Origin: Asterias amurensis
Lineage: Eukaryota > Echinodermata > Asteroidea > Forcipulatida > Asteriidae
NCBI RefSeq assembly: GCF_032118995.1
Contig: NC_092651.1
Span: forward strand, 23,234,349 to 23,298,348
Length of the DNA: 64,000 nucleotides
Direction: 5' to 3'
Shown: one piece after another, positions 30,216-61,427 of the stretch
Layout: each line of letters begins with the position of its first letter
Position numbering within the stretch: position 1 is the first letter of the stretch
Made by a program: the position numbers and the translations under genes
The notes under the pieces: generated by a model
The model's database searches: none
What the model saw: the letters and a program-made list of their open reading frames with translations, nothing else
Told to the model about the DNA's origin: nothing

Positions 30216-30548
30216 ACCAATATTCAACAAATGGAAAGTTTTTTGTAAATAATTATTGTCGTCATCGAAAATCAAGACATATATGACTAATTTAGTGTTG
30301 GGCCTATACTGGCTATGTGTCTGAGAAAAACACCAATTGGAGGGAATCGTTTTGTGTGCAAAAACCTTTATAGGAAATCCCCCGCGTGTACACCCCATGG
30401 CTAAGTTTGGCTCTGCTTACCGCCCAATTATGCACGTACGATTCACCGCTTATTATACTAGATTCAAGTTCTTGGGATAGGCCTATACCTGGCTGCATTA
30501 GCTAAAATTATACGCATTGTGACCATTTTGAAAACGGTACATAATTCA

Positions 30549-30736
30549 AAAGCGCTCGAACGAGATTGATTGAGTGACCTTTCGCCCTAACCAGGAAGTG
30601 CGGCACCATAAAATGAGTATTTTATTCGATTACAAGCAGTATAGAGTTTGTCATTCATGCTGCACGAGTTCAGCACAACTATCTGAACTAATACCGTGCA
30701 ATAAACAGAATTATAGTGATCTGCATAGAGGCAACT
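30549..30736 (+). promoter_or_regulatory. Cassette 1 conserved 5' block (ETS-type motif)
   Basis: Contains CCAGGAAGTG at 30591-30600, 146 nt before the ATG, followed by CACCATAAAA and an AT-rich stretch. The block is repeated in all five cassettes at nearly the same distance. Confidence 0.6.
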
Positions 30737-30800
30737 ATGAAGTCACAAATTCTTAGCTACTGTGATTCACGTCTCATTGCTTTGCTTATTTTTCTTGAAG
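30737..30800 (+). CDS. Cassette 1 signal-peptide exon
   Basis: ATG, then MKSQILSYCDSRLIALLIF and LE, a short n-region and hydrophobic core, ending GAAG|GTAAGCG in phase 1. It joins V1 as ..LE-GVTAQ.., a plausible signal cleavage region. Confidence 0.8.
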
Positions 30801-33800
30801 GTAAGCGTGACAGTATTTATAATTATAAGTTCATTTGTAAAACTCAATTACCTATTTTGTTCAACCGCAAATAGTTTTAAAAACTTTTACCCACAGGTGA
30901 GTTTTCCTTGTGGTTTATTACTTAATATTTTATTTACAATAACTACAATTTGAAGTTCATTACAATTAAATCCTATGTCAAAAAGGTCAAACAACAAGAT
31001 CATAACCAGAAAAAGTGCACAATAATCGGAAGCAGATAATTAATGTACGACAATGACAATCGGTTGCATTCGTAAACAAAGCCTTACGTTTACCTGTGCT
31101 GTGTGTCCATACGGACCCACTTTCATGGTCAAACATATTAGGCTTTAAGGCGGAATTTTAAATAACGGTTCATTGATAAAAGCAGATATTATTACAAAAA
31201 CAACAACAGGGGATCGAGCAATTTATTGTTGATTTTCTTATACGAAGTAATATTAGTAATTAAAATGAACATTATAATGTAGGGCAGCTTTTTCAAGCCC
31301 CTTTAAAAACAATTTGCCGTAAAACGATAATAAAAAAAAGGGGGGGGGGCAAACGAATAAGATTTTAAGCACGACGCAATTGCCCTTGATTTTTGCAGGA
31401 GTTACTGCACAGCCAGTTATTTCTGGAAATGCATGGGCAGATATTGGAATGGACACCGTCTTGACATGCTCGCCTGGAGATGGAATATTAGGACTACTAA
31501 GATGGAAAGATGGCAGCTTGAATAATGATGATATTTCAAACACGTCTACTGTAGTGAGAGTTGTGATATCAACTGGGAATCTCATTAACCGAGATGAGAC
31601 GCATTATGGATTTGATCCAAATGATCCTTTGTATCCATTAACAATAAAACAAGTGACATTGGATGATGAGGCTAAGTACTGGTGTGAGGTGTACATTGCT
31701 GGTTTTAGTCATGACACAAAGGAAATGCGAATAAGAGGTAGGAGCTCAACTATCAGATATCATTTTGATGCACATTATGTTACCATAGAAATGAAACAAC
31801 TATGGAATTGCTACAGGAGTGTTACCTATAAGTTTATGTTATCAGAAAAGTCTCTGTCTCTTTATTCAAAGTCTACTGCGGTTAAGCCACAGGCGTGAAC
31901 CTGGCTGCAGGTGGATTGGCAAAACTCTCTATACTTGGAGAACTGCCTAAAGAATTAACAACATATTCATGTGGAACAGTATACCCTATTATTCGTCATG
32001 CATGCTGATTGTCTAAAGTGAGTACAACGCAATGTTCCACTCAGCATACTCCCCTCATTACAACGAATGCCATTTTCTTTTCAAAAGAGAAGTGACTGGA
32101 CTTTTGTCCAAAATGATCAAGAGAGCATTTTGTCATCTTCACAAAAATAATGTAGCGTAAATGCATGTGACGAACATGTGACACCAAAAGATTTAACTTC
32201 TCTTATTTTGCTCCGTTTTTACAAGGATGGGTCATGGAGCAAGGTCATGCGGCTACTCCCGTACGATTGATTTTCTTTCACAAAGAGTGATGATTTATTC
32301 GACCTCAAACATAAAAAAAAAGAGTACATAACAAGGTACAATAAAGAAAATCAAATCGAAACAGGAAAAACAAAAGAAAAGATACCCTTCCTTAATATAA
32401 TCATTGGATCTTCTTTAAAACCATTGGGAACTTCCGTATACAAACTTCTGCTTCAAGGATTAATATTCAACAAATGAACAGTTTTTGTAAATAATATTTG
32501 TCGTCATCGAACATCAAGACATAACTAACTTAATGCTGGGGAAAAATACCAATTGGAGGGAATCGTTTTGTGTGTGTGAATGTTTATAGGGAATTCCCGT
32601 GTGTACACATGGCAAAATTTGGTTCTGCTTACCGCCGAATTGTGCACGAACGATTCCCCGCTTACTCGATAGGCCTAATCTGGCTGATGAGCTAAAATCA
32701 TACGCATTGTGCCCATTTTGAAAAAAAGTTCAAGGTACAACAAGATTGATTAGATGACCTTTAACCCTAACCAGGAAGTGCGGCACCATAACATTAGTGT
32801 TTTATTCGATTACAAGCAATAATATAGAGTTTGTCATTGCTGCACGAGTTCAGCACAACTATCTGAACTACAAAACCGTGCATGTAACAGACTTATAGTG
32901 ATCTGCATAGTGGCGAAAATGAAGTCACAAATTCTTAGCTACTGTGATTCACGTCTCGTTGTTTTGCTTATGTTTCTTGAAGGTAAGCGTGTTACTTTTT
33001 ACAATTATAAGTACATTTGTAAAATTCAATAACCGCAAATAGTTTCAAAAAGTTAACCAGTGAGTTTCCCTTGTTGATTATTACTTAATATCTTATTTAC
33101 AATGACTACAATTTGAAATTCATTTAAATTAAATCAATGCGTCAAAAAGGTCCCACAAGATCAGAGCAAAAATGTACGATAATGACAATCGATTGCAATC
33201 GTAAACATTCGCCTTTAAATACATTTACGTGTGCTGTGTGTCCATACAGACCCACTTGCTGGTCAATCAACATGTTAGGCTTTAAGGCGGAATTTTGAAT
33301 AACAGTTCATTGATGAAAGCAGATATTAATACAAAAACAACAACATCGAGCAATTTATTTTTGGATTTTCTCATGCCAAGTATTACTGGTTTTTAAAACG
33401 ACAAATAATTTGTATGGGTAGCTTTTTCAAGCCCCATTAAAAACAATTTGCGGTAAAACGATAGTTTAAAAAGGGGGGGGGGGACAAACGAAAAAGATTT
33501 AAAGCATAAGGCAAGTGTCTTAGGCCCTTTTCGAAACCACGGCTGCGGCTTTGGACTCGGCTTCAGGCTCCATCCTGTCGTCTGAAGCCCTGGGCGCGTA
33601 CGCAAAGCACGCGCAAATTGTCAAAACAACCGAGGGGCCAATCTAGCCTGAGCCGAATCCAAAACCAAAGGCGTGGTTTCGAAAAGGGTCTTAAAGAGCC
33701 GTTGATTTTTGCAGGAGTTACTGCACAGCCAGTTATTTCTGGAGATACATGGGCAGATATTGGCTTGAACACCACTTTGGCATGCTCACCTGGAGATGGA

Positions 33801-36800
33801 ATATTACTACTGAGATGGAGCGATGGCAGCTTGAACAATAATGATTATTACAACACATCCACTATAGTGAGAGTGGTGATACCAACATGGGATCTCATCA
33901 ACAGAGATGAGACGCATTATGGATTTGATCCAAATGATCCTTTATATCCATTAACAATAAAACAAGTGACATTGGATGATGAGGCTAAGTACTGGTGTGA
34001 GGTGTTCGTTGGTGGTGTTTACAGATATGACACAAAGGAAATGCGAATAAGAGGTAGGAGCTCAACTATCAGATTTGTGATGTGGATTGCTACAGGAGGG
34101 TTACCTATAAGTCAGAATGCAAAGTCTCTGTCTCTGTATTAAAAGTCAATTGCGGTTAAAGCCACAGGCGTGAACCTTGCTGATGGTGGACTGGCAAAAC
34201 TCTCTAGACTTGGAGAATTGCCTATACTTTAAGAATTAATAGCAGATTCATGTGGTACAAAGGCCTACCTTATTATTCGTCATGCATGCTGATTGTCTGA
34301 AGTGAAGTAAAACGCAATTGTTCGACTAACCATACTCCCCTCATTACACCGAATGGCATTTTTCTTTCAAGGAGAAGTGACTGGACTTTTGCCCAAAATT
34401 ATCAAGAGAGCATTTTGTCATCTTCACAAAAATAATGTGGTGTATAAATGCATGTGACGAACACGTGACAGTAAAGATTTAACTTCTCTTATTGTGATTG
34501 TTGGGGTTGAACAAAGAATTGACTAGAATTGGATTCGAACCAACGACCTCCGGATTAACGTGCCGGCTCTCTACCTTCTGAGCTATCTAGCCCTATGTTG
34601 GCGGTGTCCCTATTTTGTCCATGTCTTTGTTCGGGGGTGCCAGTCAGAAGCCATTCTCTTATTTTGCTCCGTTTTTATAAGGTTGGTCATGGAGCAAGGT
34701 CCCGTACGATTGAGTTTTTCTTAAAACAGTGATGATTTATTCGACCCCAACCATACAAAAACAAAAAGTACATAACAAGGCAAAACGAAGAAAATCAAAT
34801 CGATCTGGAAAAAACAAAAACAAAGCAAAAAAAAGCATTCCGTAGTATAATCATTGAATCTTCTTTAAACCATTGAACTTCCGTATACAAAATTCTGCTT
34901 CTAATATTCAACAAATGAAAAGTTTCTGTAAATAATATTTGTCCTCATCGAACATCAAAACGTTAGTCATTAGTTGGGCAATTGCCCATACTGGCTATGT
35001 GTCTGAGGAAATTGGAGGGAATCGTTTTGTGTGTGTGAATGTTTATAGGGAATTCCCCCGCGTGTACACATGGCTAAGTTTGGTTCTGCTTACCGCCGAA
35101 TAATTCACGTACGATTCCTCGCTTACTTGATTCAAGTTTGCGGGATCATAGGCCTATATCTGGCTGCATGAGCTAAAATCATACGCATTGTAACTATTTT
35201 GTAAACAAAAGTTCACGGTACATAATTCAAAAGCGCTCGAACGAGATTGATTGAGTGACCTTTCGCCCTAACCAGGAAGTGCGGCACCATAAAATAAGTA
35301 TTTTATTAGATTACAAGCAGTATAGAGTTTGTCATTCATGCTGCACGAGTTCAGCACAACTATCTGAACTAATACCGTGCAATAAACAGACTTATAGTGA
35401 TCTGCATAGTGGCGAAAATGAAGTCTCGTGATTCACGTCTCATTGTTTTGCTTCTTTTTATTGAAGGTAAGCGTGACATTATTTACAATTATAAAGGTAG
35501 GCCTACATTTGTAAAATTCAATTACTTTTTGTGTTGAACCGTAAATAGTTTTTAAAAAAATTACCCGGATGAGTTTCCCTTGTGGTTTATTACTTAATAT
35601 TTTATTTACTATAACTACCATTTGAAATTCATTTCAATTAAATCCATGTGTCAATAAGGTCCCACAACAAGATCAGAACCAGAAAAGGTGTAATTGGAAG
35701 CAGATAATTAATGTACGACAATGACAATCGATTGCAATCGTAAACATTCGTAAACAAAGCCTTTAAATACGTTTACCTCTGCTATGTGTATGGACCAACT
35801 TTCAGGTCAATCAACATATTATGCGGAACTTTGTATAACGGGAAATTCTTTATTTTAAAACAGCAGATATTGTTACAAAAACAACAACATCGAGCATTAT
35901 TTTAAATTGTCTTTATATACTATAGGTTTTCTCGGTCAAATTCGGCAAATGAGCAGCCAATTTCATTTTCAGGCGCTCGAATTACAGCTATTTTGCCTCT
36001 CCGGTTTTTACTGCGTTTCAAATTCAGAATTCGGTCATTCTATTTCGTTTTGAGGCATTCAAGTTCCTAGCACACTCATTCTTTTTCATGACACACAATC
36101 ATCATTCAATTTAGCAAAGCTGGTTTGACTAGAGATTTTGCTGATTTAATCATTTTCAATTTCGTAAAGAGGCAATCAATTTCGCTCACCGAGGATTCAA
36201 ATAAGTACGACTAAAGAAATACGAATAAACAGATAAACTGTATAAGGCAAACCGTTTCGTACTTTCACAGGTTCAAGATGGAATGCTCCCTTCAAAAAGG
36301 CGAAGTCGAATTGAACACTAAAATCAATCTTTCAAAAAATGAAAATTTATTTTTTTTATTTTATGTTTCCAGTAGACTTTACCTTGGGTCCCATAAGGGT
36401 TGTTTTCTTCTTTGTTTTTTCGGGAGACCTTCAATGGTTAACTGACCAAGACCTGACATTTGAATAGGTTTGAATGTTTTTTTTGTTTTTTTAAATGTTT
36501 TTAAATATTCACCAACCATCTGTGTTGGCGTGCCAGACATCTTTGGCAAATTATGTTCAAGAGTGCCAAAACATTAACCGAATGCCTTTAACATTCGTAT
36601 AAGGAAACAACAAGTTAGCCAAGCGTTTTTAAGACTGCAAAACTATCAGAATTGACTGCCTCAAAATGAAATCGAATGACTAAACACACGCCTCAAAAAC
36701 ACTCCTGCGAATTTGAATGCAGCTTCGATGAATTGTTAAATTGAATGATTATTTTGTTAACTCGAATGACGTAAAAGTAGATTTGACTAGTCTTAAAATG

Positions 36801-39800
36801 AAATCGAATTACCTTTTTTTAGTAGCATTCGATTTCGTGCGAAATAGAATAGGCTGGTGGTTAAATAGGCTGCTCATTTTCCGAAATTGACCGAGAAAAC
36901 CTAATGGTAATTAAAACGAAAATTAATTTGCAGTGCAGCTTTTTCAAGCCCCCTTAAAAACAATTTGCAGTAAAACGATACGTAAAAAGAAGAGGCAATG
37001 AATAAGTTTTAAAGCATAAAGCAAGTGTCTTACAAAGCCGTTGATATTTTGCAGGACTGACTGCGCAGCCAGTTATTACTGGAGAAGCATGGGCAGATAT
37101 TGGAATGGACACCGTCTTGACATGCTCACCTGGAGATGGAATATTACTACTGAGATGGAGCGATGGCAGCTTGAACAATAATGATTATTACAACACGTCT
37201 ACTATAGTGAGAGTTGTGATATCAACTGGGAATCTCATTAATAGAGATGAGACGCATTATGGATTTGATCCAAATGATCCTTTGTATCCATTAACAATAA
37301 AACAAGTGACATTGGATGATGAGGCTAAGTACTGGTGTAGGGTGTTCGTTGGTGGTGTTTACAGAGATGACACAAAGGAAATGCGAATAAGAGGTAGGAG
37401 CTCAACTATCAGGTATCATTTTGAATCACATTATGTTACCATAGAAATGAAACAACTATGAAATTGCTACAGGAGTGTTACCTATAAGTTTATACTATCA
37501 GAAAAGTTTCTGTCTCTTTATTCAAAGTCTACTGCGGTTAAGCCACAGGCGTGAACCTGGCTGCAGGTGGATTGGCAAAACTCTCTATACTTGGAGAACT
37601 GCCTAAAGAATTAACAACATATTCATGTGGAACAGTATACCCTATTATTCGTCATGCATGCCGATTGTCTAAAGTGAGTACAACGCAATGTTCCACTCAG
37701 CATACTCCCCTCATTACAACGAATGCCATTTTCTTTTCAAAAGAGAAGTGACTGGACTTTTGTCCAAAATGATCAAGAGAGCATTTTGTCATCTTCACAA
37801 AAATAATGTAGCGTAAATGCATGTGACGAACATGCGACACCAAAAGACTTAACTTCTCTTATTTTGCTCCGTTTTTATAAGGATGGGTCATGGAGCAAGG
37901 TCATGCGGCTACTCCCGTACGATTGATTTTCTTTCACAAAGAGTGATGATTTATTCGACCTCAAACATACAAAAAAAAGAGTACATAACAAGGTACAATA
38001 AAGAAAATCAAATCGAAATCAAATCCTTAATATAATCATTGAATTTTCTTTAAAACCATTGGGAACTTCCGTATACAAACTTCTGCTTCAAGGATTAATA
38101 TTCAACAAATGAACAGTTTTTGTAAATAATATTTGTCGTCATCGAACATCAAGACATAACTAACTTAATGTTGGGCCTATACTGGCTATGTGTCTGAGGA
38201 AAAATACCAATTGGAGGGAATCGTTTTGTGTGTGTGAATGTTTATAGGGAATTCCCGTGTGTACACATGGCAAAATTTGGTTCTGCTTACCGCCGAATGC
38301 CCGAACGATTCCCCGCTTACTCGATAGGCCTAATCTGGCTGATGAGCTAAAATCATACGTATTGTGCCCATTTTGAAAAAAAGAGTTCAAGGTACAATTC
38401 AAAAGCGCTCGAACGAGATTGATTAGATGACCTTTAACCCTAACCAGGAAGTGCGGCACCAGAACATTAGTGTTTTATTCGATTACAAGCAATAATATAG
38501 AGTTTGTCATTGCTGCACGAGTTCAGCACAACTATCTGAACTACAAAACCGTGCAATTAACAGACTTTTTTTTTTTTTTTTTTTTTTCCCTGGAGGGGGA
38601 AATTTATTCAAGTTTCTTCAATGTACAAAGCTACACAAACTACTGGTAAAACCAACTACTTATAGAACGATACTAAGAGAGAAATGGCCAATTGCAAAAA
38701 CAGGAAGTTTGATGATTATGCAAGGCATTTAGTTGGTACATAGCAATACAAAAGGCTCCCATTTGGTATTGAACTTATCTAAGTTGTTATTCTTAACAAA
38801 GATCATTTTTTCCATTACAAAATAATGATTTATTTCCTTTTTGATAAGAACAAATGAAGGCTTTCTGTCGTTCATCTTCATCCGATAAATATGAAAACGG
38901 CAAAGAATGAGAATTAAATTGAGAGCAGACCATTTTCTATTTAGGACACCAAACAGCTTAGTCGTGTTGTCAAAATTAATGTCAATGTTCAGTGTATTAG
39001 TCAACCAGTGTTTTATCTGACGCCAAAAATACAGAGACACCTTGCAATTACAAAACAAGTGGACTAGTGTCTCTTCTTCCCTTTTACAAAAAGTACACAG
39101 ATTAAAATTCTTCCGACCAATTTTAGAAAGAAAGGAATTTACACCCAGAATTCTATGCACCAATCTAAACTGGAACCAACGTAACTTGGTGTCACATGTA
39201 CAGTTAAAGGGTAAACCACAGAAAATGTGCCATTGAGGAATCGGAAAAATCACGCCAATTTTTTCTTCCCATTTAACAATAAACTTGTGCACAACTTTTT
39301 TGCTGGAGGTGAAAACACTGTACAGACGGGTGGAGCCCTTTATATCCATCAAAAAGTCTCAAAATTAAATGGTAAAAAAGGGCGAGCGATTTCTGTGGTT
39401 TCTCCATTCAGTACATTACGGAAGGAATGTTTGATTGCATTGACCACGCCCCCGTACTCTAAAAAATTTGTTCTGACCCTGAATTTCCTTTGAAATGCCA
39501 CAAGAGAAAGAGCCACACCTTGCGTGTCAAAAATGTCACACACGAAGTTCACACCCTTTTTGGCCCAGTGTTTATAGTTAATGTTTTTGTTACCGACCAT
39601 AATATTCTGATTATGCCACAACACATTTTTCAAAGCGTCAATTTGACTGGCAGGTACATGACACTTAACAAAGCTGCACCAAGCATTAAGAACATCAATC
39701 CAAAAATGGTTTTGATTTGCAGCCCCTTTTAAATAGATCAGCAATGCCTGGTGGCCTCCCTCGAGTGCTAGAGGATCATGAATGTTCGAAATCTTCAAAA

Positions 39801-51800: not shown

Positions 51801-54800
51801 AATTTGCGAAAACTAAACGGTTTTCTTTAAAAGAGCATTAAGAGTTGCCGATAGATGAAAATAAATATATGATATAGCCCAGATTTGGAGTTGAGATAAA
51901 TTGCGATTAGAAGCCATTTTAGGTGAAAAAGCAACCAAACGCATGTGTTACACATTATAATGCCAGTTTGGACGAAAATGGCATATCTATAGCAACTATA
52001 CGCGAACTGGCCCCAAGAAAACTGGACCCTCTTTATAAGGCCACGGTAAACTTGAAATTGGCCTGTTTTCCAACAAGTAAATCTTTAGAATTGAACTATA
52101 TCGAAGTCTATCACATTTACGTCTGTTTTTTATATTCCAGTTCCGCCTGCTACCATATATTTAACATATAAGAATACCATCTACGCCGACCAAGCCGATG
52201 TTGAAGTGATAGCAGGAGATGGTCATCAGTTTAGTTGTGAGACGCTCGGCATCAAACCTAATGCAGTCTTCACCTGGACTCTTCAGGGTACACCACTCTA
52301 TCAAGGACTTCCTGGGACTACCACTCCCAATAGTGGAGATAGCAGATTGAGTGACAGCTTGAGTGCAGTAACTGTGAATGTTCCAGAGAGTCCTGCAGTG
52401 CAGCAACTGACATGTGGTGCTACTAACAGACAAGATGGGAATACAGATACTGAGAAGGATACTTCTGTAACTTTACAAGTCAAAGGTTCGGACTTGATTT
52501 ACATTCGAATTTAGATCTGTTTATTGTCCGCATTATAAATACACAGAAATTTGGCTTCCATTGGCATAAGAATAAAACATTTGTTAAATAACATGCTGGC
52601 ATGCATCAATTCAATTGCTTTATATCCGATATTCGTCTCTTTTTCAATAAGAGACCTGAGTGCCAAAATCTTGCTGTGAAAACAGCTCAACCTAACTTAA
52701 AATGCTGACTCTTTTTAAATGATATTTTATTTGAACCCCAACTCAAGTGTTCCACTGACCTAGGATTTATATTCTTTGCATCGTTGTGGTTCTGTACTTC
52801 TCGTTAAAATTTTATGTGAGTAATCATAACCATGGTTCAATTTTCTAGCTCTCATTGCGCTGTATACTATATAGTTATGCTCTTTTGTTTCTGAGCAGAT
52901 TTTTTAATACAAGAAGGAGAAACAAGTTTCGCAGCAATATACTGTCATCAGATTATTATTGATTAATTTCAGTCGGTGTCATAGTGTTACGCTGTACTTT
53001 TTTGTGTGTCATCGGCGTGAGAAATTCCTTTAAGATAACCCTGTTTGAGGTAATTTGTTCTTTTCCAGTTCCTCCAATATCATCCAAAATGACTCTCCAA
53101 GGAACCAACTCAGACGGTACATTATCTGTAGATGAAGGTTTGATGAGCACAATCACATGCGTTGTTATGGGTACCAGACCATCTGCAGATATCAAGTGGT
53201 TTCTCAATGGTGTAATGCAGTCTGGTGGTACAGTATCCCCACCTTCAGCAGACTCTGATGAACTATATGATACCACAGGATCTTGGTGGATTACTCCAAC
53301 TAGGAACAACCATAAAGATGAGGTGATGTGTCAGGCAAGCACTCCACAATCACAAGGAGATCTACCAAAGGTGACAGCAGTACTCAATGTGAATGGTACG
53401 TAACGAACACTCATACACCAATGGAAAAGGACTCATTTATTTCCTAAAGTATTCCACAACTTTAAGTACAAACAATGGCATTTGTATCAGCAGTTTAAGT
53501 TCACATCATCACATTCACACAGGAACTTTTTAGATCAAAGACAAAGTACTTACATGTATAAGAGAGATACCTCGGTCTGAATTACTAACAAAGTCGAAAA
53601 AGACCCCAAAGTATTTTGCTTGTTTTTATTGACACAATAATAAAATATATAGATCCAACATGGGCTATCTAAGGTCATGCAGATGAAATAAAACAGCATG
53701 ACTGCATTGATTGAATGGTGGGCAGCCGATTTCACGAAACGCTAGGATTATCGAGTTAGGACGAGTATATTTAGGGTTCTCTGCGTCCTATAACGTAGGT
53801 GGACACGGAACTTAACTCGTTCTAAGTCCCAAGACTAATCCTAAGTTAGAAATAGTTTGATTAAATCGACGACTGGTTCCTTGAATTGTTAAAGGTTTTT
53901 TTTTCACCAAACCAGGCTCCTGTGATGTTCCCCTATACATCCTCACTTGTTCTTTAGTTAGTGTGAAGGTAATATGAACTATACATGTACAGTTCAAGGT
54001 AATAATGCCCATGAAGAAATTGCACATCGTGTGAGAATGTCTTCAGGTATACATTCCCATATGCACTGTGTTAAAACTGTACTAGCCGTGCTGGTAAAAT
54101 TGGCAATGAACAAGATGAATCAGAAGCGATTATTATAAATGCAATTCCTTTATTCAGAAAAGAGATGCAATACCAAATTAATTTACCCAAGACAGGGAGG
54201 TTGGTGTATTCTTTATGGTGATCAGCAATTCTGTGTTATATTTTCTAATGTCCAATGACGATGTTTGTTTCGTCTTCGTATGCATGTAGGTTCTCCAGAC
54301 ACTCCAAGCATAACCGGCAATACACAAATGACTGAGAATGTACAGACAAGTCTGATGTGTGAAGCAGACATGGGGTTTCCAGACGATTGGAGTTTACATT
54401 GGTTCAGAGAAGATACAGCAATAACACCCAACCCAATCACAACGCCTTCACCGTCAGGGAATCGCTTCATGTTCAGCAGCACTCTGAACTTCACACCAAT
54501 CAGAGAATATAATGGACATACCATCAAGTGTGGTGCACAGAAGCATTCAATGAGTGGTTCAAAGGCAACGCTTGGTCCGATAGATGTTCAATGTGAGTTA
54601 AGCATTAAGTGTCTGTTGACCCCTATTGACGTTTCGCGAGGCTATATTAGGGCGGTTCAGCTGCACGTTCCGCGTGAACATGAACGTGAACGTGAACGTG
54701 AACGTCAGAAAATTGTGTCATTAAAATCTCACGTTTTTAGCATACGTGAAGTAACCATTTTCACGTCAGGTACCTATGTGCGCGCAGACGTCATACGTGA

Positions 54801-57800
54801 GCATGCAATAAGCCCAAAGTGGTGACGCGTCGTGACGTCACCACGTAACAACACAATTTGTTGACGTTCACTTTCACATATTTGGTTGCGTAACGTGCAG
54901 CTAAACCTCGCCATCTGACCGTAATCTGCCATTTTTGGTATGCGTAACTATTGACACGTTTTCTCTTTGTATAAAAGAGAACAATGAACGTGAACAAGAG
55001 TCTACCTAAAAATTGCGCAATCAGATTTATATTTAAAGACGCCAGGTAAAATTGTGAACAAAGTTACACTTTTCTTTTGAAATCCAACAAATTTAACACC
55101 TGTTTCCGCCATCTTTATTTATTTTTAGTCTGTGTCAGATCTGTGAGCATCATGGCATGTGCGACTGCCACTGCTGGCAACACTGCTGTATTAAGATGTG
55201 TATCCGACAGTAGTAACCCAGCTACTACACTGACATGGTCAAGAGATGGTATGGATCAAACTAACACTAGTCCTCAACCAGACTCTGATGGTAGCAATGG
55301 AGGCATCATCACCACACTGGACATCACAACCAACGTGTTAATATGACAATGGTGCTGTATTCCAATGCAGTGCGTCTAATGATGCAGTCACGTGTGGAGT
55401 CGACATTGACGTCACTGATTCATGTACACTGAATGTGCAGTGTAAGTACATGGGTGGTATTACTTCAAATACAATTTTAATAATTTTTCTCTAAATACGT
55501 GACATTTTGATGATTTTTTTTTTACAACAACCATCTATAAAAACATTATTTATGATTCTACCCCACTGTGTCCCTTTAAATTAATTGTAATGTTTGAACA
55601 AAGAACAGCAATACTGATCGACAACAAGATATATAACAGCCATGTTTGAGCATCCTTCCTCCATGGTTTGAGACTCAAGACTGTTCTTCAAGACTGCTCC
55701 AAGACTAGGTGCATGTCGCATTTGACCATTTTCATATAAATATAAATATATTTGTATTAAACAGTTCAACCCCAAAAGTAGAAAATTATTTCAAGGTCAT
55801 TATTGTTACATGTATGTGCTGTATGGACTTACGCAATAAATCCTCTTGCAGAACAAAAACAAGTTTTGTTGTTTCTTTCACAATCGCTGTCCGACTTTGG
55901 ACTAGATTTACCTTTTATACCTTTTGCAGATACTCCTGAGTTTACTGCAGCCTCAGTCAATCCTGTCACCCCAGTCATTGAAGGTGGTGAAGTCATCCTA
56001 ACATGTACTGCAGATGCTAACCCGAAACCTAGTAACTTTATCATATGGGAGAAGCAAGACTCCCCCAGTACAGTACTTAGCAGTGTTTACAATGACGGAA
56101 GCAGTACACTAACATTGAGTGATATCCAGAGAGATCAAGCAGGGAGCTATAGATGCAAAGCTAACAATGGGATACCAACGAGTAACTCAGATGTGTTTTC
56201 GGAATCAGTGATTGTCAAAGTACACTGTAAGTACATGTTTCTCATGTTTACTGTTTGTAATTTATAAAAAAAGAGTTTCTTTTAAAACGAACTTTGTTAT
56301 CAAGGTAATTTTTTTCTTTTTAAATTGATTGCCATAACAGAGTTGCTGTGTTTTACCCTGTAATGTTTTAGATGATACGTATTTTATCGTCATTTATCGC
56401 AAGTAAAGTGTTATCTAAAGCAATTGTGGCGAGCGAGGATAGATATATATTCAGGCTGTTGTACAAACTGTTGTATCAATATTCACTATAAAATATTTCT
56501 TTGTTAATAGTTTGGCATGTACGTGAATACTGATTGAAACTTCTCTAATGACTTGCCTATAAATATGTTATCTAAAGTGGACATTTAAACAAAATAAAAA
56601 ATTGTCATGTCACTGTGATTGTGGTTTATTTGAGAACACTGTTGCATAAGGTCTTCACGCACTTTTTTAAACAACAGATGAGGTTAATATCACCAACAAG
56701 GAGGACAATGAGATGGGTGTAAGGGATAACATTGATGCCAACTTAACATGTAAGGCAGTCGGCAATCCAGCGCCTGTCATGATGTGGTTCGATCCAGACA
56801 ACACTTTCATTTCTAGCACGAGAAATCCCGATAAGTACACAGTAGAAGATACCACTATCGGGGATGACATCTATGGATTCATGGTGACCAGTACCTTGAC
56901 GATCAAGAGAGTGGACTCACGAGTTGACTTTGGAGTTTATACATGTCGCAGTTCTAATGGGATCGGACAGGTGGACATGCTGATGGTAGTTGTTAATAGA
57001 ACAAGTAAGGTTATTTTGAAACCATTATCCTTAAAGATGCCCCTTGCATAAGACTCAACCTGTGAATATGTTAAAGGTAGGGCTGTCATGCTTTCTTTAA
57101 AAAATCAGCAAATCTTAATACAATGACATGCATTTTCCAGGAAGACCAAATCAGCCGTCCGGCTTGGTATTGAACGGCCGTACCTCAAGTTCAATAGCAG
57201 TAAGATGGTCAGCTGGTTATGATGGTGGTGAGAATCAGTGGTTTCATGTCAGCCACAAGAAGACTGCAGAAGACTCCTCAGAGACATTCAGCGATATGAT
57301 TGACGGAGGGGTGACTACATACAACGTGGATGGTCTCGACTCATACACGGAGTACGAGATCAAGGTTTATGCTGAGAATGACGTTGGGAAAAATCCCAGT
57401 CCTGCCAGCGTAGTGGAATACACATTGCGTAAGTTCGTATGTTTCAATTTCAAATATTTTGCTCCCTTTATCGACACAAATTTACAACACTTAAACTTTC
57501 TCTCTTTGTTCATGGAAAAAAAGTAAACATTGTTTTTGCGTTGTACGAATGATCGAGGCGTGTGGATAAAGCACATCACATGAAATTGTTTTATCCAGAC
57601 TAGATGGTGGTTTAAGGGGTGTTTTACTGCATAATACTCCTCATAAACTTTTTAAGCTATATTTTATGGGAGTTTAATCATAATGTATCCCGAGTGTGCA
57701 TCTTTCTATTTTATTTAAACTGTAAATTTTGACCAATGAGATCTACCTTTTCCCTTCCTTTCCAAGACATAAAGACTTACACAGGCTCTTTATTATAGAT

Positions 57801-60800
57801 TTCTATGAATATTTGTCAATATTTGTCAATAATTTGTCAATAATTATACACTTTTTATCCTTCGTTTCCACACCAGCTCAAGGACCAACAGATAAAGGTT
57901 AGTATTATTGGTTATTGCACTTTCAAGATTCACCATCGTGTGTTTGCCATTGGATAAATAACAAGTGTTTTTTTGTTAATTCGTTTTCAACTATTGCAGT
58001 TTATACATTACATGCATTTTAGTAAACATTTTCTGATAAACCAACTCTGAAAACTTGATGACGCAATCGCATTACCACCCAAACAAAACCCATAATAATG
58101 ATAGTTATAATAATTTGATGTAAAATGATTTCACAAATAAAAATGTAATGCTTGAAATAGAATTTTGAGGACTGTGGACATATCAAATTGCATGTATAAA
58201 AAAAAAGACAATTTGAAACAGAACATATTCTTTCTGTTTTTGTAAGAGACCTTCTTTAGCTGGAAGATTTCTACCTTTAACTATCAACTCAAATTTACCC
58301 TATTCATGGTTTTTATATCGTCATGTTCATATTCTCAAGTGAGAGTCCATTAAAGCCACTTTGGACACTTTCCGTAAACAGTATTTTCCAAAGGCCCACA
58401 CTTCGTGTATCACAACTTGCATATAAAATAACAAACCTGTGAAAATTTAGGCTCAATCGATCATCGGAGTCGGGAGAAAATAACGGGGAAACCCACCCTT
58501 GTTTCCGCACGTTTCGCCGTGTGATGACATGTGTTTAAAATAAATCCGTAATTCTCGATATCGAGAATTGATATTGTTTATTTTAACGTTTTCTCAAAAA
58601 GTAAAGCATTTCTTGGAACAATATTTCATAAGAAGTCTTTCACCATTACCTTCTGTAAACCCTGTAAGTAATTATTTGTAAATCTGTGACTTTTTTATTC
58701 TTTTTTCTGTTCCGAAAGTGTCCAATGGCTTTAAAGGCAGTCTATACCTTTAGTTTTTGGAACCACTTGATTGTTTTAATCCTAAATGCAGCTAATACAA
58801 CAAACTTAACTTGCTAAAATTTCCTTTCAAGAGTGGTCGCGTTTTTGAGATATCGCCGAAATTCCGGAGCGAATATATGTCCACGTAAGAATAACCCCTA
58901 AAGGAATACACAATCTGAAAACCGTTGGGCGGCCCGGTTACACTTCTTAAATTCAAATTTTTGGGGACTCAAAAGTGATGTCTTTTTCTATATCCGTAGA
59001 ATATAGTCTGCGAAGTGAAATGTTTTCTCAAAATACATTATAAGCCTATCTATAGCAATATCTGATCCAAAGCTGATGTAGGCCTATTTTTTACCATGTA
59101 AGTTTTTATCGCCATCAATTTTCAGAGTCATTACCGAACGTATATCGAACATATACAGACGGGCCCTTTAACTGTGTAACTGTATCGTGTTGTCTTAATA
59201 AACTTTCACTATAGGTTTAATTATTGAGTTTAACAAGGATGCGGGCAGAGTCAAGGTTTCTGGATTGCAAGGCAGTGGAGGATGCGTTCAGCTCGAGGTG
59301 AAGTTTGAAGGTGGCTCATCAGACTGGACAGAGTGTGGAAGATGTATCACAACAGACTCTGAAGTGGTTCTAGCAGATTGGTGTCCACAAACTCAGAAAC
59401 GAAGACGGAGAGCTATAGGGGATGTGGATGAAGTGCAGGCAAAGTATTGCAAAGGGAATGGCGATAGTACACTCTGTAGTGATCCAATAACTCTTGAGAA
59501 GTGTAAGTCAAATAAAGAGATAAATGGTTTCTCAGATACCCTAGCAACCAAACAGCTTACACTATTCCCGACACTTGATACAATCAGGAACACCCACTTT
59601 TTACCTTTAAAGGTATGGGTCATAGTGCGTTATAGCGACCCGAAAAGATATTGTTTGTTATAAATAGTGTCCACTGCATTTAACTTTCAAAGTTGACTTT
59701 TATCAAACTGTCTTGGTAGTTGCAAGTATGCAGGGAAACTTAAACCTGATTTTATACCCCATTATATAGTTTCAGATCCGCCTTCTACTCCTCCCCAGGC
59801 CATCAACTCTGGTGTCATTGTTGGTGTCGTTGTCGGTGTTATTCTGCTTGTCGCCATTGTCGTTTTAGTTTATACTCTGAGGAGTAGACTTCAGTGTCAC
59901 CTTGAACTTGAAGGTATTTTATATATACAAATTGATTTCTAACCAAACATGGGATGAGAGAAGAATCAAATGCTCCTGATTGGAATTTGAACCCAAGACC
60001 CCTGATACTCTTGGCAGATGCTCTACCAATGAGGCACAGCGGTTTACTCTCAGGTTTTCCCCCAAGAACCCCACATTTGTTTCTCTCGGTGTTGCATTTT
60101 CTAACAAAATGATCTCTGTGAAAGTTGCATGCTCTCACACCAGAGTTATTGTATCCAAAGTGACAGCCATTGACGTGGATATAAGAGAAATGGGGAAAAA
60201 CCTTGTTTTCCAGATATTTTACGAACATTTGAAGTATTGTAGTCTGAAAGTGTTACCGCGGTAACACTCCTTATAGTAACTTTTTCGGGATAAAACATGA
60301 CATCTTTTTCCACAGCCGCAGTGCTTTGAGGTGAAAAGTTTCTCAAAAATGACTTATACTATCCAAAGCTGTTTGACTTCTTACCACGTAAGAACTCATT
60401 GTCATTAATTTTCAGAATCATTACCAAACGTACTTACAGGGAAGGTACACGTTTGGTAATTATACTCAAAAACAAATATTAACTTAAACACTGACTTGGT
60501 AACGAGCATTGGAGAGCTGTTGATAGTAAAACATAGTGGGATACGACTCCCTCTGAAGTAATGTAGTTTTTGAGAGAGAGGTAATTTCTCACTCTAATAA
60601 TAAAAGACTTCTAGCTAGAAGTCTTTTACTACAACTGAAAGCACACAAATTCGTCCAACAAGGGTGTTTTTTCTTTCATCATTTTCTCGCAACTTCGATG
60701 ACCGATTGAGCCCAAATTTTCACAGGCTTGTTATTTTATGCATATGATGGGATACACCAAGTGAGAAGACTGGTCTTTGACAATTACCAAACGTGTACAA

Positions 60801-61427
60801 TGCCTTTAAGACCCTTTAAATCCGCTATAAACTGGTCAACAAAATTTGTACTTGTTCAGAACATAACGTTGAACAAACTGTAGGGATGTGTTGTGTCTAT
60901 ATTTCAATACTAACAGCAATGTTTGTTTGTTTGTTAATGTTTGTTTGTTTGTTTGTTTGTTTCATTCCAGTCACAAGAAAATCATCCACTCGGACGTGAG
61001 TTTGTTTTTTTATCACATTGTGATTTTTTTTTCTAAAACAATTAACAGGATTTTAAGTCCTAATTTCTACAACACACAATAGGCCTAATGCTATAATGCG
61101 ACCGAGCATACATCTTCGAACGAAATCGAATTAGTAAAGTTGAATTTGTTGCAATTTGCCGGGAAAAAAAGGTAAATGCCTTTACCTAATTTGTAGCAAA
61201 GTAAAACCAAAACATGATATATTGGACGTTTTCTTCGTTTTCTGGAACCAACTGATTTCTTTTTAATGGAAATACACAAATACTTAGATAGTACTCTTAT
61301 TTAAAGAGTCCCGACTATCCTTTAAGAACCCATAAATCATAACTTGTTGTTTGTTTTATCACTAGTAACCGTTCTGGCAGAAATAAAACCGATGCAGATA
61401 AGCAGCCCGTCTACCAAGATGTTACAG
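30737..61427 (+). CDS. Immunoglobulin-superfamily receptor with five alternative signal/V cassettes and shared Ig-FN3-TM exons
   Basis: Predicted type I membrane protein: signal peptide, one V-type Ig, six further Ig domains, FN3, a 7-residue linker, an FN3-like domain, a transmembrane helix and a cytoplasmic tail with a tyrosine. Exons from V to TM are all phase 1-1. Five signal exons (30737, 32919, 35418, 43639, 46492) and five V exons lie upstream of one set of shared exons (52141-61427). A V donor (AGAG|GTAGGA) joined to the first shared acceptor gives ..RIR-VPPATIY.., a normal inter-Ig linker. I infer alternative promoters, one per cassette, with splicing onto the shared exons. A simpler alternative is that only the last cassette belongs to this gene and the others are short secreted paralogues. 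I do not recognise a named orthologue. The gene probably continues beyond 61427. Confidence 0.75.
31399..31737 (+). CDS. V1: V-type Ig exon of cassette 1
   Basis: 113 codons, phase 1-1. Cysteine in LTCSPGDG, Trp in LLRWKDGS, and the second Cys in DDEAKYWCEV define the Ig fold. The loop after the second Cys reads EVYIAGFSHDTKE, differing from V2-V4. V1 has one extra residue in the first Cys-Trp loop (ILGLL). Acceptor TTTTTGCAG, donor AGAG|GTAGGA. Confidence 0.88.
32735..32918 (+). promoter_or_regulatory. Cassette 2 conserved 5' block
   Basis: CCAGGAAGTG at 32771-32780, 148 nt before the ATG, then CACCATAACATTAGTG. The upstream CGCTCGAACGAG segment kept in the other cassettes is shortened here. 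Confidence 0.55.
32919..32982 (+). CDS. Cassette 2 signal-peptide exon
   Basis: 64 nt; MKSQILSYCDSRLVVLLMF then LE, donor GAAG|GTAAGCG. Nearly identical to cassettes 1 and 4. Confidence 0.8.
33523..33690. mobile_element. Short MITE 24 nt before V2 (TTA target duplication)
   Basis: GGCCCTTTTCGAAACCACGG at the left, CGTGGTTTCGAAAAGGGTC at the right, flanked by TTA on both sides. Cassettes 1 and 3 lack it at the same site. The size and 3-nt duplication suggest the PIF/Harbinger type. A paralogous copy lies at 44606-44773. Confidence 0.85.
33715..34053 (+). CDS. V2: V-type Ig exon of cassette 2
   Basis: 113 codons, phase 1-1, same Cys/Trp/Cys frame as V1. It reads LRWSDGSLNNNDYYNTSTI in the first loop region and EVFVGGVYRYDTKE after the second Cys. 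It is separated by only 21 nt from the end of a MITE and its flanking TTA. Confidence 0.88.
34494..34654 (-). mobile_element. tRNA-derived SINE in cassette 2
   Basis: Flanked by the 9-nt duplication TCTCTTATT (34485-34493 and 34655-34663). Inverse B box GGATTCGAACC and inverse A-box-like GAGCTATCTAGCC. The empty site is seen in cassettes 1 and 3; the same insertion is in cassette 4. Confidence 0.92.
35227..35417 (+). promoter_or_regulatory. Cassette 3 conserved 5' block
   Basis: CCAGGAAGTG at 35272-35281, 146 nt before the ATG, followed by CACCATAAAATAAG. Confidence 0.6.
35418..35466 (+). CDS. Cassette 3 signal-peptide exon (short form)
   Basis: 49 nt; MKSRDSRLIVLLLFIE, lacking the QILSYC segment of cassettes 1, 2 and 4 and resembling cassette 5. 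Donor GAAG|GTAAGCG in phase 1. Confidence 0.78.
35926..36903. mobile_element. Family F element (GGTTTTCTCGGTCAAATT ends)
   Basis: About 975 nt with TIRs GGTTTTCTCGGTCAAATTCG and the inverse near 36868-36901; flanked by TA. The interior repeats ATTCGATTT / AAATCGAAT-type motifs. A shorter copy lies at 47798-48211. Confidence 0.8.
37055..37393 (+). CDS. V3: V-type Ig exon of cassette 3 (mosaic)
   Basis: 113 codons, phase 1-1, intact. The 5' edge (GACTGACTGC..GTTATTACTGG) matches V5, the next part (GGAATGGACACCGTCTTGAC) matches V1, the middle (AGCGATGGCAGC..GATTATTACAACAC) matches V2, and the 3' part matches V4/V1. After the second Cys it reads RVFVGGVYRDDTKE, with Arg where others have Glu. 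Confidence 0.88.
38398..38567 (+). promoter_or_regulatory. Cassette 4 conserved 5' block, cut off from its gene by a LINE
   Basis: CCAGGAAGTG at 38444-38453. The block breaks at 38567 inside CAATTAACAGACTT and resumes at 43600, next to the start codon, after about 5 kb of LINE. Confidence 0.65.
38729..39350 (-). CDS. LINE ORF2, C-terminal part (after frame break)
   Basis: Continues ORF2 in another frame: begins near MDIKGSTRLYSVFTSSKK and carries CTFCKREEETLVHLFCNC, the zinc-ribbon-like Cys-rich motif seen at the C-end of many LINE ORF2 proteins. About 200 codons. Separated from the main ORF2 by a one-base slip in a T run near 39351-39356. Confidence 0.8.
39349..42573 (-). CDS. LINE ORF2: endonuclease-reverse transcriptase
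   Basis: 1074 codons. The N-terminal APE-type endonuclease shows SMNCRGLAD, GDWNLVLND, SRLDFFLIS and YRTDHSLID. The reverse transcriptase has LLIDFEKAFDSVSHSF and the catalytic SQYADDTVLF, preceded by GCRQGDGLSP. The layout and the presence of a separate ORF1 fit the L1 group. Needed for target-primed retrotransposition. The ORF ends early at a TGA produced by a length change in a T run. Confidence 0.93.
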   Translation of the reverse strand: MINGQSTYIKQRQLLSIASMNCRGLADHTKRRDVLHFLKSKKHSIYCLQDVHWDKNIESRVRAEWGLECYFSSFKSNARGVAILFNNNFEFNVHRSCNDPNGNFLALHIEVSDMNITLINIYGPNKDEPFFYDGISNTINTFDNPHTVICGDWNLVLNDNIDCINYVNINNPLAKKRVLSLCGEHDLTDPWRIQNPTTASYTWRRHDSVKQSRLDFFLISSEMNSKVTGCDIKPGYRTDHSLIDIQFDFNQMDRGPGYWKFNNSLLSDTVYVDQIKNAIKKVVETYAAFPYLHSNLVHIHPNDIHFTVNDQLFFEMLLLEIRSKTISYASWKKTSNNKRESHIETAIQNLSYQISQGDLTVTEELKSKQTELIDLRKKKMEGVLIRSKTRWIEEGEKPSRYFLNMEKRKMINKTISSVVRDDNTYASSSGEILNESRLFYKKLYSEAENLNDSNLSSVFNGVPVLPDRLRESLEGPSSYHELLNALKGSKNDISPGSDGFSFEFYKFFFSDIAWYLLRSLNYAYSSGSLSITQQYGIVTMLPKGDKPRQFLKNWRPISLLNTSYKLASSCISDRLKKALPFIIHEEQKGFLSGRYIGENIRLMYDLLNFTENNNIPGMFLLIDFEKAFDSVSHSFILKVLEQFNFGPSIQKWFSVFYSGAKASVLVNGFLSESFKIERGCRQGDGLSPYLFLLCAEVFGMLIRKDKVLKGIMDSGCEFRLSQYADDTVLFLDGSEGSFEKSFEILAAFARMSGLKVNIDKTNAVWIGSNKGRKKGICEHIKVNWVLAENSFRALGIDFNTNLASMVNLNYTKVISAIKSLIEQWSKRNLTVLGRVTVTKSLLLSKLTFLILTLPNPPSNVIKELDCMFYNLIWKGNDRVSRNQMIQGYSHGGVKMIDMHSYIKALKVTWIRRFLSSNNLGWVTLFLKISNIHDPLALEGGHQALLIYLKGAANQNHFWIDVLNAWCSFVKCHVPASQIDALKNVLWHNQNIMVGNKNINYKHWAKKGVNFVCDIFDTQGVALSLVAFQRKFRVRTNFLEYGGVVNAIKHSFRNVLNGETTEIARPFLPFNFETF
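43265..43599 (-). CDS. LINE ORF1, C-terminal fragment
   Basis: About 110 codons reading RIERAHRDGQDRTGKPAHIL, then a basic region, similar to the RRM and C-terminal domain of L1 ORF1 RNA-binding proteins. The 5' end of the ORF is missing because the insertion is truncated at 43599. Stop at 43265-43267; about 690 nt separate it from ORF2. Confidence 0.7.
43639..43702 (+). CDS. Cassette 4 signal-peptide exon
   Basis: 64 nt; MKSQILSYCDSRLIVLLMF then LE, donor GAAG|GTAAGCG. Intact, but its promoter block lies beyond the LINE, 5 kb upstream. Confidence 0.75.
44024..44415. mobile_element. Family A MITE in cassette 4 intron
   Basis: Inserted at TTAA: cassette 2 reads GATATTAATACAAAAAC at the same place, cassette 4 reads GATA-TTAA-element-TTAA-TACAAAAAC. 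This demonstrates the target duplication directly. Confidence 0.93.
44606..44773. mobile_element. Short MITE 24 nt before V4
   Basis: Same insertion as 33523-33690, flanked by TTA (44603-44605 and 44774-44776). Confidence 0.85.
44798..45136 (+). CDS. V4: V-type Ig exon of cassette 4
   Basis: 113 codons, phase 1-1. ILACSPGDAILLLRWRDGSL (Ala for Gly before ILLL), then DEAKYWCEVFVGGVYRDDTK. Intact frame although the cassette's promoter is displaced. Confidence 0.87.
45559..45718 (-). mobile_element. tRNA-derived SINE in cassette 4
   Basis: Orthologous to the copy at 34494-34654: same flanking TCTCTTATT (45550-45558 and 45719-45727), same orientation. Confidence 0.9.
46306..46491 (+). promoter_or_regulatory. 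Cassette 5 conserved 5' block
   Basis: CCAGGAAGTG at 46348-46357, 144 nt before the ATG, followed by CACCATAAAATAAG. Confidence 0.6.
46492..46540 (+). CDS. Cassette 5 signal-peptide exon (short form)
   Basis: 49 nt; MKLRDSRLIVLLLFLE, donor GAAG|GTAAGCG in phase 1. Closest to cassette 3. Confidence 0.77.
46846..47766. mobile_element. Non-autonomous element with GGGTCGGTTTCACGAAGC ends
   Basis: TIRs GGGGTCGGTTTCACGAAGC and GCTTCGTGAAATCGACCCC, about 920 nt apart, with palindromic TACGATGCATCGTA sub-ends. No long ORF. Inserted in cassette 5; the other cassettes show the empty site (GTGTCCATACGG-like). Confidence 0.8.
47798..48211. mobile_element. Family F element, short copy
   Basis: TIRs as in 35926-36903. 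Inserted between CAACATA and TTATGCGG, which are contiguous in cassette 3; the TA is duplicated. Its position differs from the cassette 3 insertion, so it is an independent event. Confidence 0.85.
48466..48802 (+). pseudogene. V5: V-type Ig exon of cassette 5, frameshifted
   Basis: 337 nt, not a multiple of 3. Compared with V1-V4, five bases are missing where the first Ig cysteine codon should be (..CATCTTG-CTCACC..), so this Cys is lost and the frame runs into a stop. Downstream the frame is recognisable (DDEAKYWCGVIDVNGFNKDD), with one extra codon in the loop after the second Cys. Splice sites look intact. Confidence 0.85.
49340..50010 (-). pseudogene. Degenerate THAP zinc-finger copy inside an inverted repeat
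   Basis: In reverse complement, DGVRLHVFPADPKYGRLW in one frame and ALCSEHFEPSCFESGINHTF in another are the two halves of a THAP domain, with a frameshift near 49785. It ends RRAYAKRE then stop. The ends share an inverted TGACGTCAATTGAGGC-like repeat. Likely a dead THAP gene copy or transposon remnant. Confidence 0.6.
50011..52140. other. Long intron between V5 and the first shared Ig exon
   Basis: No supported exon. Contains a G homopolymer near 50242-50257 and a diverged family G repeat at about 51190-51520 (ATATCGCCGAAACCTTGAG, CCAAAGCTATAGGCC). The intron upstream of 52141 is about 3.3 kb. Confidence 0.5.
52141..52485 (+). CDS. Shared exon C1: Ig domain
   Basis: 115 codons, phase 1-1. 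VPPATIY linker, Cys in HQFSCETLG, Trp in VFTWTLQGT and Cys in QLTCGATNR. Acceptor TATATTCCAG, donor AAAG|GTTCGG. First exon downstream of all V cassettes. Confidence 0.87.
53069..53395 (+). CDS. Shared exon C2: Ig domain
   Basis: 109 codons, phase 1-1. STITCVVMGTRPSADIKWFL gives the Cys and Trp; EVMCQASTP the second Cys. The GTRPxAxIxWFLNG style resembles Ig domains of nephrin/Kirrel-like adhesion proteins. Confidence 0.88.
53723..53873. mobile_element. Family E MITE
   Basis: Starts GCCGATTTCACGAAACGCTA; palindromic TAAGTTAG/CTTAACTC parts; ends TTAAATCGACGACTGG. Confidence 0.7.
54290..54592 (+). CDS. Shared exon C3: Ig domain
   Basis: 101 codons, phase 1-1. TSLMCEADMGFPDDWSLHWF supplies Cys and Trp, TIKCGAQKH the second Cys. 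Acceptor CATGTAG, donor CAAT|GTGAGT. Confidence 0.86.
54637..54925. mobile_element. CGTGAA-rich inverted-repeat element
   Basis: Left GCGAGG..AGCTGCACGTT mirrors AACGTGCAGCTAAACCTCGC at the right; contains a (CGTGAA)n run near 54675-54705. Confidence 0.6.
55129..55441 (+). pseudogene. Shared exon C4: Ig domain with one extra base
   Basis: 313 nt where the other shared exons are multiples of 3. NTAVLRCVSDSSNPATTLTW gives Cys and Trp; the second half DNGAVFQCSASND is in the next frame. The slip lies near 55338-55342 and creates a TGA at once. Acceptor TTTTTAG and donor CAGT|GTAAGT are good. It could be a real allele defect, an exon that is skipped (phase 1-1), or a sequence error. Confidence 0.8.
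55930..56226 (+). CDS. Shared exon C5: Ig domain (I-set like)
   Basis: 99 codons, phase 1-1. EVILTCTADANPKPSNFIIW and DQAGSYRCKANNG are classic C2/I-set motifs. Acceptor TTTTGCAG, donor CACT|GTAAGT. Confidence 0.9.
56678..57004 (+). CDS. Shared exon C6: Ig domain (I-set like)
   Basis: 109 codons, phase 1-1. IDANLTCKAVGNPAPVMMWF and VDFGVYTCRSSNGIGQ. Acceptor AACAACAG, donor ACAA|GTAAGG. Confidence 0.9.
57141..57428 (+). CDS. Shared exon FN1: fibronectin type III domain
   Basis: 96 codons, phase 1-1. RPNQPSGLVLNGRTSSSIAV, RWSAGYDGGENQWFHV and LDSYTEYEIKVYAENDVGKN show the FN3 pattern of Pro/Trp/Tyr. Confidence 0.92.
57877..57897 (+). CDS. Shared 21-nt linker exon
   Basis: Codes for AQGPTDK between FN3 and the next domain; acceptor CCACACCAG, donor AAAG|GTTAGT, phase 1-1. 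Assigned from splice motifs and frame only. Confidence 0.65.
58350..58733 (-). mobile_element. Family C MITE
   Basis: TTAAAGCCACTTTGGACACT at the left, AAGTGTCCAATGGCTTTAA at the right; bounded by TTAA. It abuts a family G repeat. Confidence 0.85.
58731..59173 (+). mobile_element. Family G TTAA-bounded repeat
   Basis: Begins TTAAAGGCAGTCTATACCTT and ends ACAGACGGGCCCTTTAA. Partial copies are at about 51190-51520 and 60265-60440. Confidence 0.65.
59215..59502 (+). CDS. Shared exon FN2: FN3-like domain with tetra-arginine site
   Basis: 96 codons, phase 1-1. GCVQLEVKFEGGSSDWTECG and KYCKGNGDSTLCSD; Cys-rich compared with FN1. The middle reads TQKRRRRAIGDVDE, matching the furin consensus R-x-K/R-R. 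I call it FN3-like from its length and position before the TM exon; the fold is uncertain. Confidence 0.75.
59776..59913 (+). CDS. Shared transmembrane exon
   Basis: 46 codons, phase 1-1. DPPSTPPQAINS stalk, then VIVGVVVGVILLVAIVVLVY, a 20-residue helix, followed by the basic stop-transfer TLRSRLQC. Acceptor AGTTTCAG, donor GAAG|GTATTT. Confidence 0.9.
59935..60060 (-). mobile_element. tRNA-derived SINE, diverged
   Basis: Inverse B box GGAATTTGAACCCAAGACC and inverse A box GCTCTACCAATGAGGCACAG. Confidence 0.6.
60440..60810 (+). mobile_element. Family B-like MITE (GTACACGTTTGG ends)
   Basis: AAGGTACACGTTTGGTAATT at the left and CCAAACGTGTACAATGCCTT at the right. The interior matches family B (GGTAACGAGCATTGG, GGTTTGTTATTTTATGC-like) with an added CTTCTAGCTAGAAG palindrome. 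Confidence 0.8.
60971..60995 (+). CDS. Shared cytoplasmic exon a (25 nt)
   Basis: Codes for VTRKSSTRT in frame after the TM exon; acceptor CATTCCAG preceded by a (GTTT)n tract, donor GGAC|GTGAGT, phase 1 to 2. Small, assigned by motifs. Confidence 0.6.
61366..61427 (+). CDS. Shared cytoplasmic exon b (tyrosine motif)
   Basis: 62 nt, phase 2 to 1. NRSGRNKTDADKQPVYQDVT; the Y-Q-D-V is a possible SH2-binding phosphotyrosine site. Acceptor ATCACTAG, donor ACAG|GTTGGT. Confidence 0.7.

Follow-up and report, generated by a model that had tools for sequence, protein, structure and literature searches.

Five tandem signal/V-type Ig cassettes ahead of a single receptor body in Asterias amurensis, a possible case of alternative promoter use

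In chelicerates, the sDscam-alpha genes carry tandem 5′ cassettes of two exons (a leader exon and one Ig exon), each cassette with its own promoter, ahead of common exons, as described in the available text of two reports (PMC4835542, PMC5775551). According to the same portion of the first report (PMC4835542), transcription from an upstream promoter can also lead to splicing of downstream sDscam cassettes to the constant exon. In the clustered protocadherins, one large variable exon holds the ectodomains, the transmembrane segment and part of the tail, and the rest is shared, as stated in the accessible part of PMC8787164. Here we analyzed a stretch of 64,000 nucleotides of A. amurensis DNA, hereafter the window, in which an initial annotation had described V-type Ig cassettes joined to common receptor exons. 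The annotation knew of no echinoderm V-type receptor with this layout; the layout does have a precedent, which the annotation did not name, in chelicerate sDscam-alpha as described in the available text of PMC4835542. Our literature search, to which most subscription papers were out of reach, found no echinoderm V-set receptor with this layout.

Self-BLAST and a repeat search of the window showed a tandem array of five units at 30205–49169 (+). The units are duplicates of one another, and each consists of a promoter-like block, an exon with the ATG and signal sequence (S) and one V-type Ig exon (V). Homology among the units starts at about 30205, 32198–32448, 34654–34903, 37854–38083 and 45718–45981, and the last unit ends at about 49169. 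The coding parts of the signal exons were located at 30737–30800 (S1), 32919–32982 (S2), 35418–35466 (S3, 15 bases shorter with the frame kept), 43639–43702 (S4) and 46492–46540 (S5), all on the plus strand. The V exons, on the same strand, lie at 31399–31737 (V1), 33715–34053 (V2), 37055–37393 (V3), 44798–45136 (V4) and 48466–48802 (V5); the first four are intact, and the frame of V5 is broken by a net loss of two bases. Clean splice sites in matching phase were found for all ten exons, with the donors GAAG/GTAAGC in 5/5 signal exons and AGAG/GTAGGA in 5/5 V exons. The exons, donors and self-BLAST results thus agree with the five tandem cassettes, each with a 5′ block, an ATG/signal exon and a V-type exon, that had been annotated.

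Two of three tRNA matches in the window (9521–9593, 34520–34592 and 45585–45656 (−), the last by Rfam only) fall inside units 2 and 4 and are possibly tRNA-derived repeats; the tRNA and Rfam scans of the window gave nothing besides these matches. Upstream of the array, a TBC-domain exon (7350–7718) and a protein-kinase-like exon (14408–14884, with a kinase match below the Pfam cut-off) are present on the minus strand, and together they are reminiscent of TBCK. A DNA transposon is probably present at 23906–25450 (+), where a frame encodes a FLYWCH zinc finger and weakly matches a MULE transposase.

The receptor body is encoded by a single set of exons at 52141–61427 (+), 3 kb beyond the end of the array. 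It is a run of phase-1 exons in the order of six Ig exons, an FN3 exon, a membrane-proximal exon, a transmembrane (TM) exon and two tail exons. When the exons were scanned one by one against Pfam, Ig families were found at E<0.01 in C1 (52141–52485, Ig-like, Ig_3 at E=0.003, which is below the curated cut-off), C2 (53069–53395, C2-set_2), C3 (54290–54592, C2-set_2), C5 (55930–56226) and C6 (56678–57004), and FN3 in F1 (57141–57428). C4 (55129–55441, 313 nt) is an Ig exon whose first part matches C2-set_2 and whose frame is broken inside the exon. A possible optional micro-exon of 21 nt, with phase 1 on both sides and open in the chain, lies at 57877–57897. No Pfam match at E≤0.01 was found for the membrane-proximal exon MP (59215–59502), whose basic RRRR stretch is a possible protease site. 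The TM exon (59776–59913, mean hydropathy 3.57 over 19 residues) might instead start six bases earlier, from the acceptor at 59770. The tail exons are T1 (60971–60995) and T2 (61366–61427), and T2 carries a YQDV motif, which, read as VYQDV, might serve in tyrosine signalling. The donor ending T2 is weak and the tail may run past the window, at whose 3′ end a 30-base tandem repeat array occupies 63332–63991. By sequence, the solved relatives of the body were generic Ig/FN3 adhesion receptors; contactin-2 came first (2.9e-20) and Dscam lower (4e-15) among the best 60 of 133 matches, these being match scores and not a tree.

The body exons that were searched for occur only once in the window. A tblastn search (E≤0.05) with C1–C6, F1, MP and TM as queries, C4 being queried up to its stop and the tail exons left out, found no second copy in the window. 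This, with the Pfam results, agrees with the single run of shared Ig, FN3 and TM exons that had been annotated. The annotation also held that no cassette has its own TM exon, and we found the same: no phase-1 exon candidate with a hydrophobic 19-residue stretch was present in the regions downstream of V1–V5, and the scan of the shared region recovered the real TM exon (3.57, with acceptor 59770) and two weak candidates (1.73 and 1.74). The reverse-strand controls gave 0 to 3 candidates per region. Unit homology ends before C1 and no further copy of a body exon was found in the window, from which we conclude that body exons were probably never part of the duplicated unit. The simplest history would be that one gene had its 5′ end duplicated, rather than that five whole genes decayed. 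It is also highly improbable that the cassettes are five separate short genes, each encoding a secreted protein with one V domain and terminating in its own 3′ flank. At least one AATAAA occurs in each of the five flanks, that of V2 lying in the S3 leader, but this motif is common in AT-rich sequence. Moreover, the unspliced read-through tails of V1–V4 have 22 to 53 residues and resemble each other only in the two recent pairs, V1/V3 and V2/V4.

Each unit has a promoter-like pair, TATAGAG ... TTCAGC. A pattern search located it at 30640–30674 (+) in cassette 1, and from 32823, 35321, 38496 and 46397 (+) in cassettes 2–5. These were the only matches in the window, none being on the opposite strand, for a pattern that was read off the cassettes themselves, which are duplicates of each other. 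In 5/5 units, the TATA-like TATAGAG stands 28–31 bases ahead of the A of the initiator-like TTCAGC, and in the frame of each ATG, the sequence upstream contains a stop nearer than any other ATG. When cassettes 1, 2, 3 and 5 were compared in pairs, mismatches were fewest in the stretch from −120 to −60 that includes the pair (9/351, against 31/351 and 34/354 in its neighbours). This stretch is, by a modest margin, the least variable of the 5′ region: of its 57 gapless columns, 3 vary, compared with 72/386 in the well-aligned surroundings (p=0.013) and 19/116 in the neighbouring stretches (p=0.051). The whole region from −180 to 0 was not distinct (22/173 columns against the same 72/386, p=0.088). 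A stronger contrast for the 180 bases before the ATG (p=0.0003) was rejected because it leaned on poorly aligned outer columns. The pair and its modest conservation suggest a putative core promoter in each unit.

All S, V and C1 junctions are in phase 1, and C1 has a good acceptor at 52141. The initial annotation had pointed to the phase-1 V donors and first shared acceptor, which we confirmed, yet this agreement is weak evidence for joining because most Ig exons are phase 1. When joined in silico, S1-V1-C1, S2-V2-C1, S3-V3-C1 and S4-V4-C1 had 0 stops each; the V1-to-C1 intron would span about 20 kb. Every V exon also has its own phase-1 acceptor as well as a donor, so that several could be joined, and the choice of one V among five is not forced. 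S1-V1-V2-V3-V4-C1 was likewise open, without a stop. A single promoter might then serve several V domains in a row, as in this string, but the promoter-like pair, ATG and signal exon in each unit would be needless in that case, and adding V5, with its 337 nt, breaks the frame; we regard such strings as unlikely.

Our preferred reading, to which we give a probability of about 0.5, is that the cassettes are alternative-promoter cassettes placing one V domain per receptor on a common body. The 5′ end of a single IgSF receptor gene (promoter, signal exon and V exon) would have been duplicated in tandem to give alternative first cassettes. Transcription from the promoter of one cassette would lead to splicing of its signal exon to its V exon, and that V exon would be spliced over the later cassettes to C1, so that each receptor would carry one of several V domains atop the common Ig/FN3/TM/tail body. 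That promoter choice picks the V domain had been proposed in the initial annotation. In its favour are the TATA-like/initiator-like pair, ATG and signal exon of each unit, the frame of cassettes 1–4 with C1, the constraint on V1–V4 described below and the example of chelicerate sDscam-alpha; against it, the V acceptors leave V strings possible, V1 would have to be spliced to C1 over about 20 kb, at most 3/5 cassettes are fully intact, the shared exon C4 is frame-broken, and the conservation of the block is modest. That the individual promoters are used, that a transcript carries a single V and that the receptor has a role in recognition, conceivably of microbes or self, are inferences.

Analysis of the V domains showed that V-set is the best Pfam family for V1–V4. 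The Pfam cut-off of 26 bits was reached by V3 (27.2) and V4 (26.0), and V1 (24.0 bits, E=4.5e-5) and V2 (23.6 bits, E=6.1e-5) were just under it. The canonical Cys-Trp-Cys core (C23, W34 and C94) is invariant across these four. The best solved relative of V2 by sequence was the polymeric Ig receptor (E=0.00036), and none of its 46 matches at E≤1 among solved sequences was named Dscam. No recombination signal (CACAGTG, a spacer of 11–13 or 22–24 and a nonamer of at least 7/9) was found on either strand of the window, and neither CACAGTG nor CACTGTG was present within 200 bases 3′ of any V exon. In a search of viral contigs for V-domain relatives, 52 stretches fitted a pattern and 0 were confirmed. 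An AlphaFold model of V1–V4 (four sequences) gave a mean pLDDT of 35.8 and a pTM of 0.27 and was set aside, and we do not claim the variable positions as binding loops.

The V exons V1–V4 are under constraint. Their dN/dS values range from 0.36 to 0.58, and the exon has two indel events of 3 bases each, whereas nine such events occur in the 301 bases of intron that come next, and the lengths of six of these are not multiples of three. In the alignment of V1–V4, 26/113 columns vary, 18 in columns 1–60 and 8 in columns 96–105, directly after the second cysteine. The 35 columns from 61 to 95 are invariant in a row (permutation p=0.00045).

The relationships among the V exons are mixed. In the 3′ introns, all 29 two-against-two sites group V1 with V3 and V2 with V4; of the 12 such sites in the V exon, 6 support this grouping and 6 oppose it (Fisher p=0.0002 against the introns), with the conflicting sites arranged in blocks. 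A shared-run test on the 47 sites of V1–V4, from which V5 was left out because of V5-only sites, showed long runs shared by V3 with V2 (12, permutation p=0.0006) and with V1 (9, p=0.003); the other four pairs gave uncorrected p values of 0.027 to 0.14. The signal exons show yet another pairing, with a 15-base deletion common to S3 and S5, which indicates that the units have recombined. The mosaic sites of the V exons suggest that the cassette duplicates swap sequence by gene conversion.

Synonymous change in the V exon is also high against the intron, being 9/~75 against 8/330 for V1/V3 (p=0.001) and 8/~75 against 20/636 for V2/V4 (p=0.006). Positive selection as the sole cause of the exon change was rejected on this ground, and conversion fits better. 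A breakpoint near the 3′ end of the V exon explains part of the V1/V3 contrast, because the 5′ flank (7/34), the signal exon (9/49) and the first intron (33/281) all diverge more than the exon (27/336), and only the 3′ intron is low in divergence. Tentatively, promoter choice among germline V-set cassettes may be combined with conversion between cassettes that reshuffles the V exons, with damaged cassettes as possible donors. Such a conversion-fed V repertoire on one body in an invertebrate deuterostome, itself a possibility to be held with caution, would be convergent with chelicerate sDscam.

Cassettes 1–3 are intact in this haplotype, and this is the most that can be counted as fully intact among the five. 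The initial annotation had all five feeding the shared exons, but it missed that V5 of cassette 5 has lost its frame and that cassette 4 is split by a LINE. V5, the V exon nearest to the shared exons, is 337 nt and not 339 nt long; compared with V2–V4, 5 bases have been deleted from it and 3 inserted. It could not be read in frame from S5, as S5-V5-C1 contained 23 stops. Its dN/dS was 1.08 against V2 and 0.55, 0.69 and 0.49 against V1, V3 and V4, so V5 is not clearly constrained. In cassette 4, a LINE insertion of 5,032 bp in antisense (38568–43599, −) lies between the initiator-like site and promoter-like block, which runs to 38567, and the ATG of S4 at 43639, with an identical 14-base target duplication at 38554–38567 and 43600–43613. 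It thereby separates S4 from its promoter-like block and probably disables the cassette's own start, though transcripts starting at an upstream promoter could still include V4.

The LINE itself looks young and has a frame of 1,074 residues (39349–42573) with endonuclease and reverse transcriptase matches. A second LINE-like stretch was seen by eye in a different frame at 38729–39358, and the element may therefore not be intact.

This damage to two of the five cassettes, together with their recombination, could mean that only one or two are in use and the rest are duplication debris of a birth-and-death process, with diversity lying between haplotypes or species and not between cells. We find this doubtful, since V1–V4 all keep their frame, both cysteines and their splice sites, and their exons have only 3-base indels where the 3′ introns have many others.

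C4 presents a second frame break. With C4 included, the body chain shifts by 1 base within the exon and meets a stop at residue 398; without it, the chain remains open for 807 residues, the tail exons included. The shared exon set that had been annotated is present, but the annotation missed this shift in C4, and the chain is open only if C4 is skipped. Such skipping is possible, C4 being bounded by phase-1 introns on both sides. Two independent frame breaks, in V5 and in C4, the latter touching every transcript that includes C4, would fit a gene that is a recently dead or dying copy, with an intact paralogue perhaps elsewhere. This seems quite improbable to us, as the body can be read without the skippable C4, and one small indel may stem from misassembly or represent an allele. 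Both breaks, near 48520 in V5 and near 55344 in C4, may be alleles, fixed lesions or assembly errors.

As an arrangement of alternative cassettes, the locus is closest to chelicerate sDscam-alpha, in which, as far as the available descriptions go, tandem cassettes of a leader exon and one Ig exon also precede one Ig/FNIII/TM/tail set, and lineage-specific cassette duplication is a further likeness. The Ig domain of the cassettes is V-set-like here, without a match to Dscam, whereas that of sDscam is related to Ig7; there are five cassettes here, two of them damaged, against up to 62 in those descriptions of sDscam. Because of the V-set-like cassette domain, we do not file the locus as a member of sDscam, although it may work alike; relative to sDscam, what would be new is this V-set-like domain in the cassette, judging from its Pfam matches. 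The vertebrate clustered protocadherins have their own promoter for each variable unit and shared 3′ exons, as is proposed here, but the variation here is limited to the signal sequence and one V domain; no cadherin family was found at E≤0.1, and the TM segment sits in a shared exon.

UGT1A genes encode enzymes and not receptors, and their cassettes have one exon. VCBPs, the V-region chitin-binding proteins, combine V domains with a chitin-binding domain, whereas the chain assembled here, with C4 left out, matched no chitin-binding family at E≤0.1. To our knowledge, the SpTransformer genes of sea urchins are whole small two-exon genes without Ig domains or shared exons. The locus resembles the UGT1A cluster in its tandem variable first exons, with promoters that are putative here, and common downstream exons (PMC3325998, accessible part). 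It resembles SpTransformer (Sp185/333), a family of immune genes, in being duplicated and clustered in an invertebrate deuterostome, as described for that family in the available text of PMC5103432 and PMC5491942. With the sea urchin IgV-IgC1 receptors it shares a V-type Ig transmembrane receptor in an echinoderm, and the available portion of a review that mentions those receptors describes no multi-cassette organisation (PMC3308324). It differs from the rearranging antigen receptors in that no recombination signal sequences were found beside the V exons. If transcripts confirm the preferred reading of alternative promoters, then alternative 5′ cassettes on a common cell-surface receptor would have three origins or more (in protocadherins, in chelicerate Dscam and here). 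In the present case the domain concerned would be the V-set domain, the one used by vertebrate antigen receptors, and the locus would illustrate one way for an animal to diversify a V domain while the rest of the receptor stays constant and no genes are rearranged.
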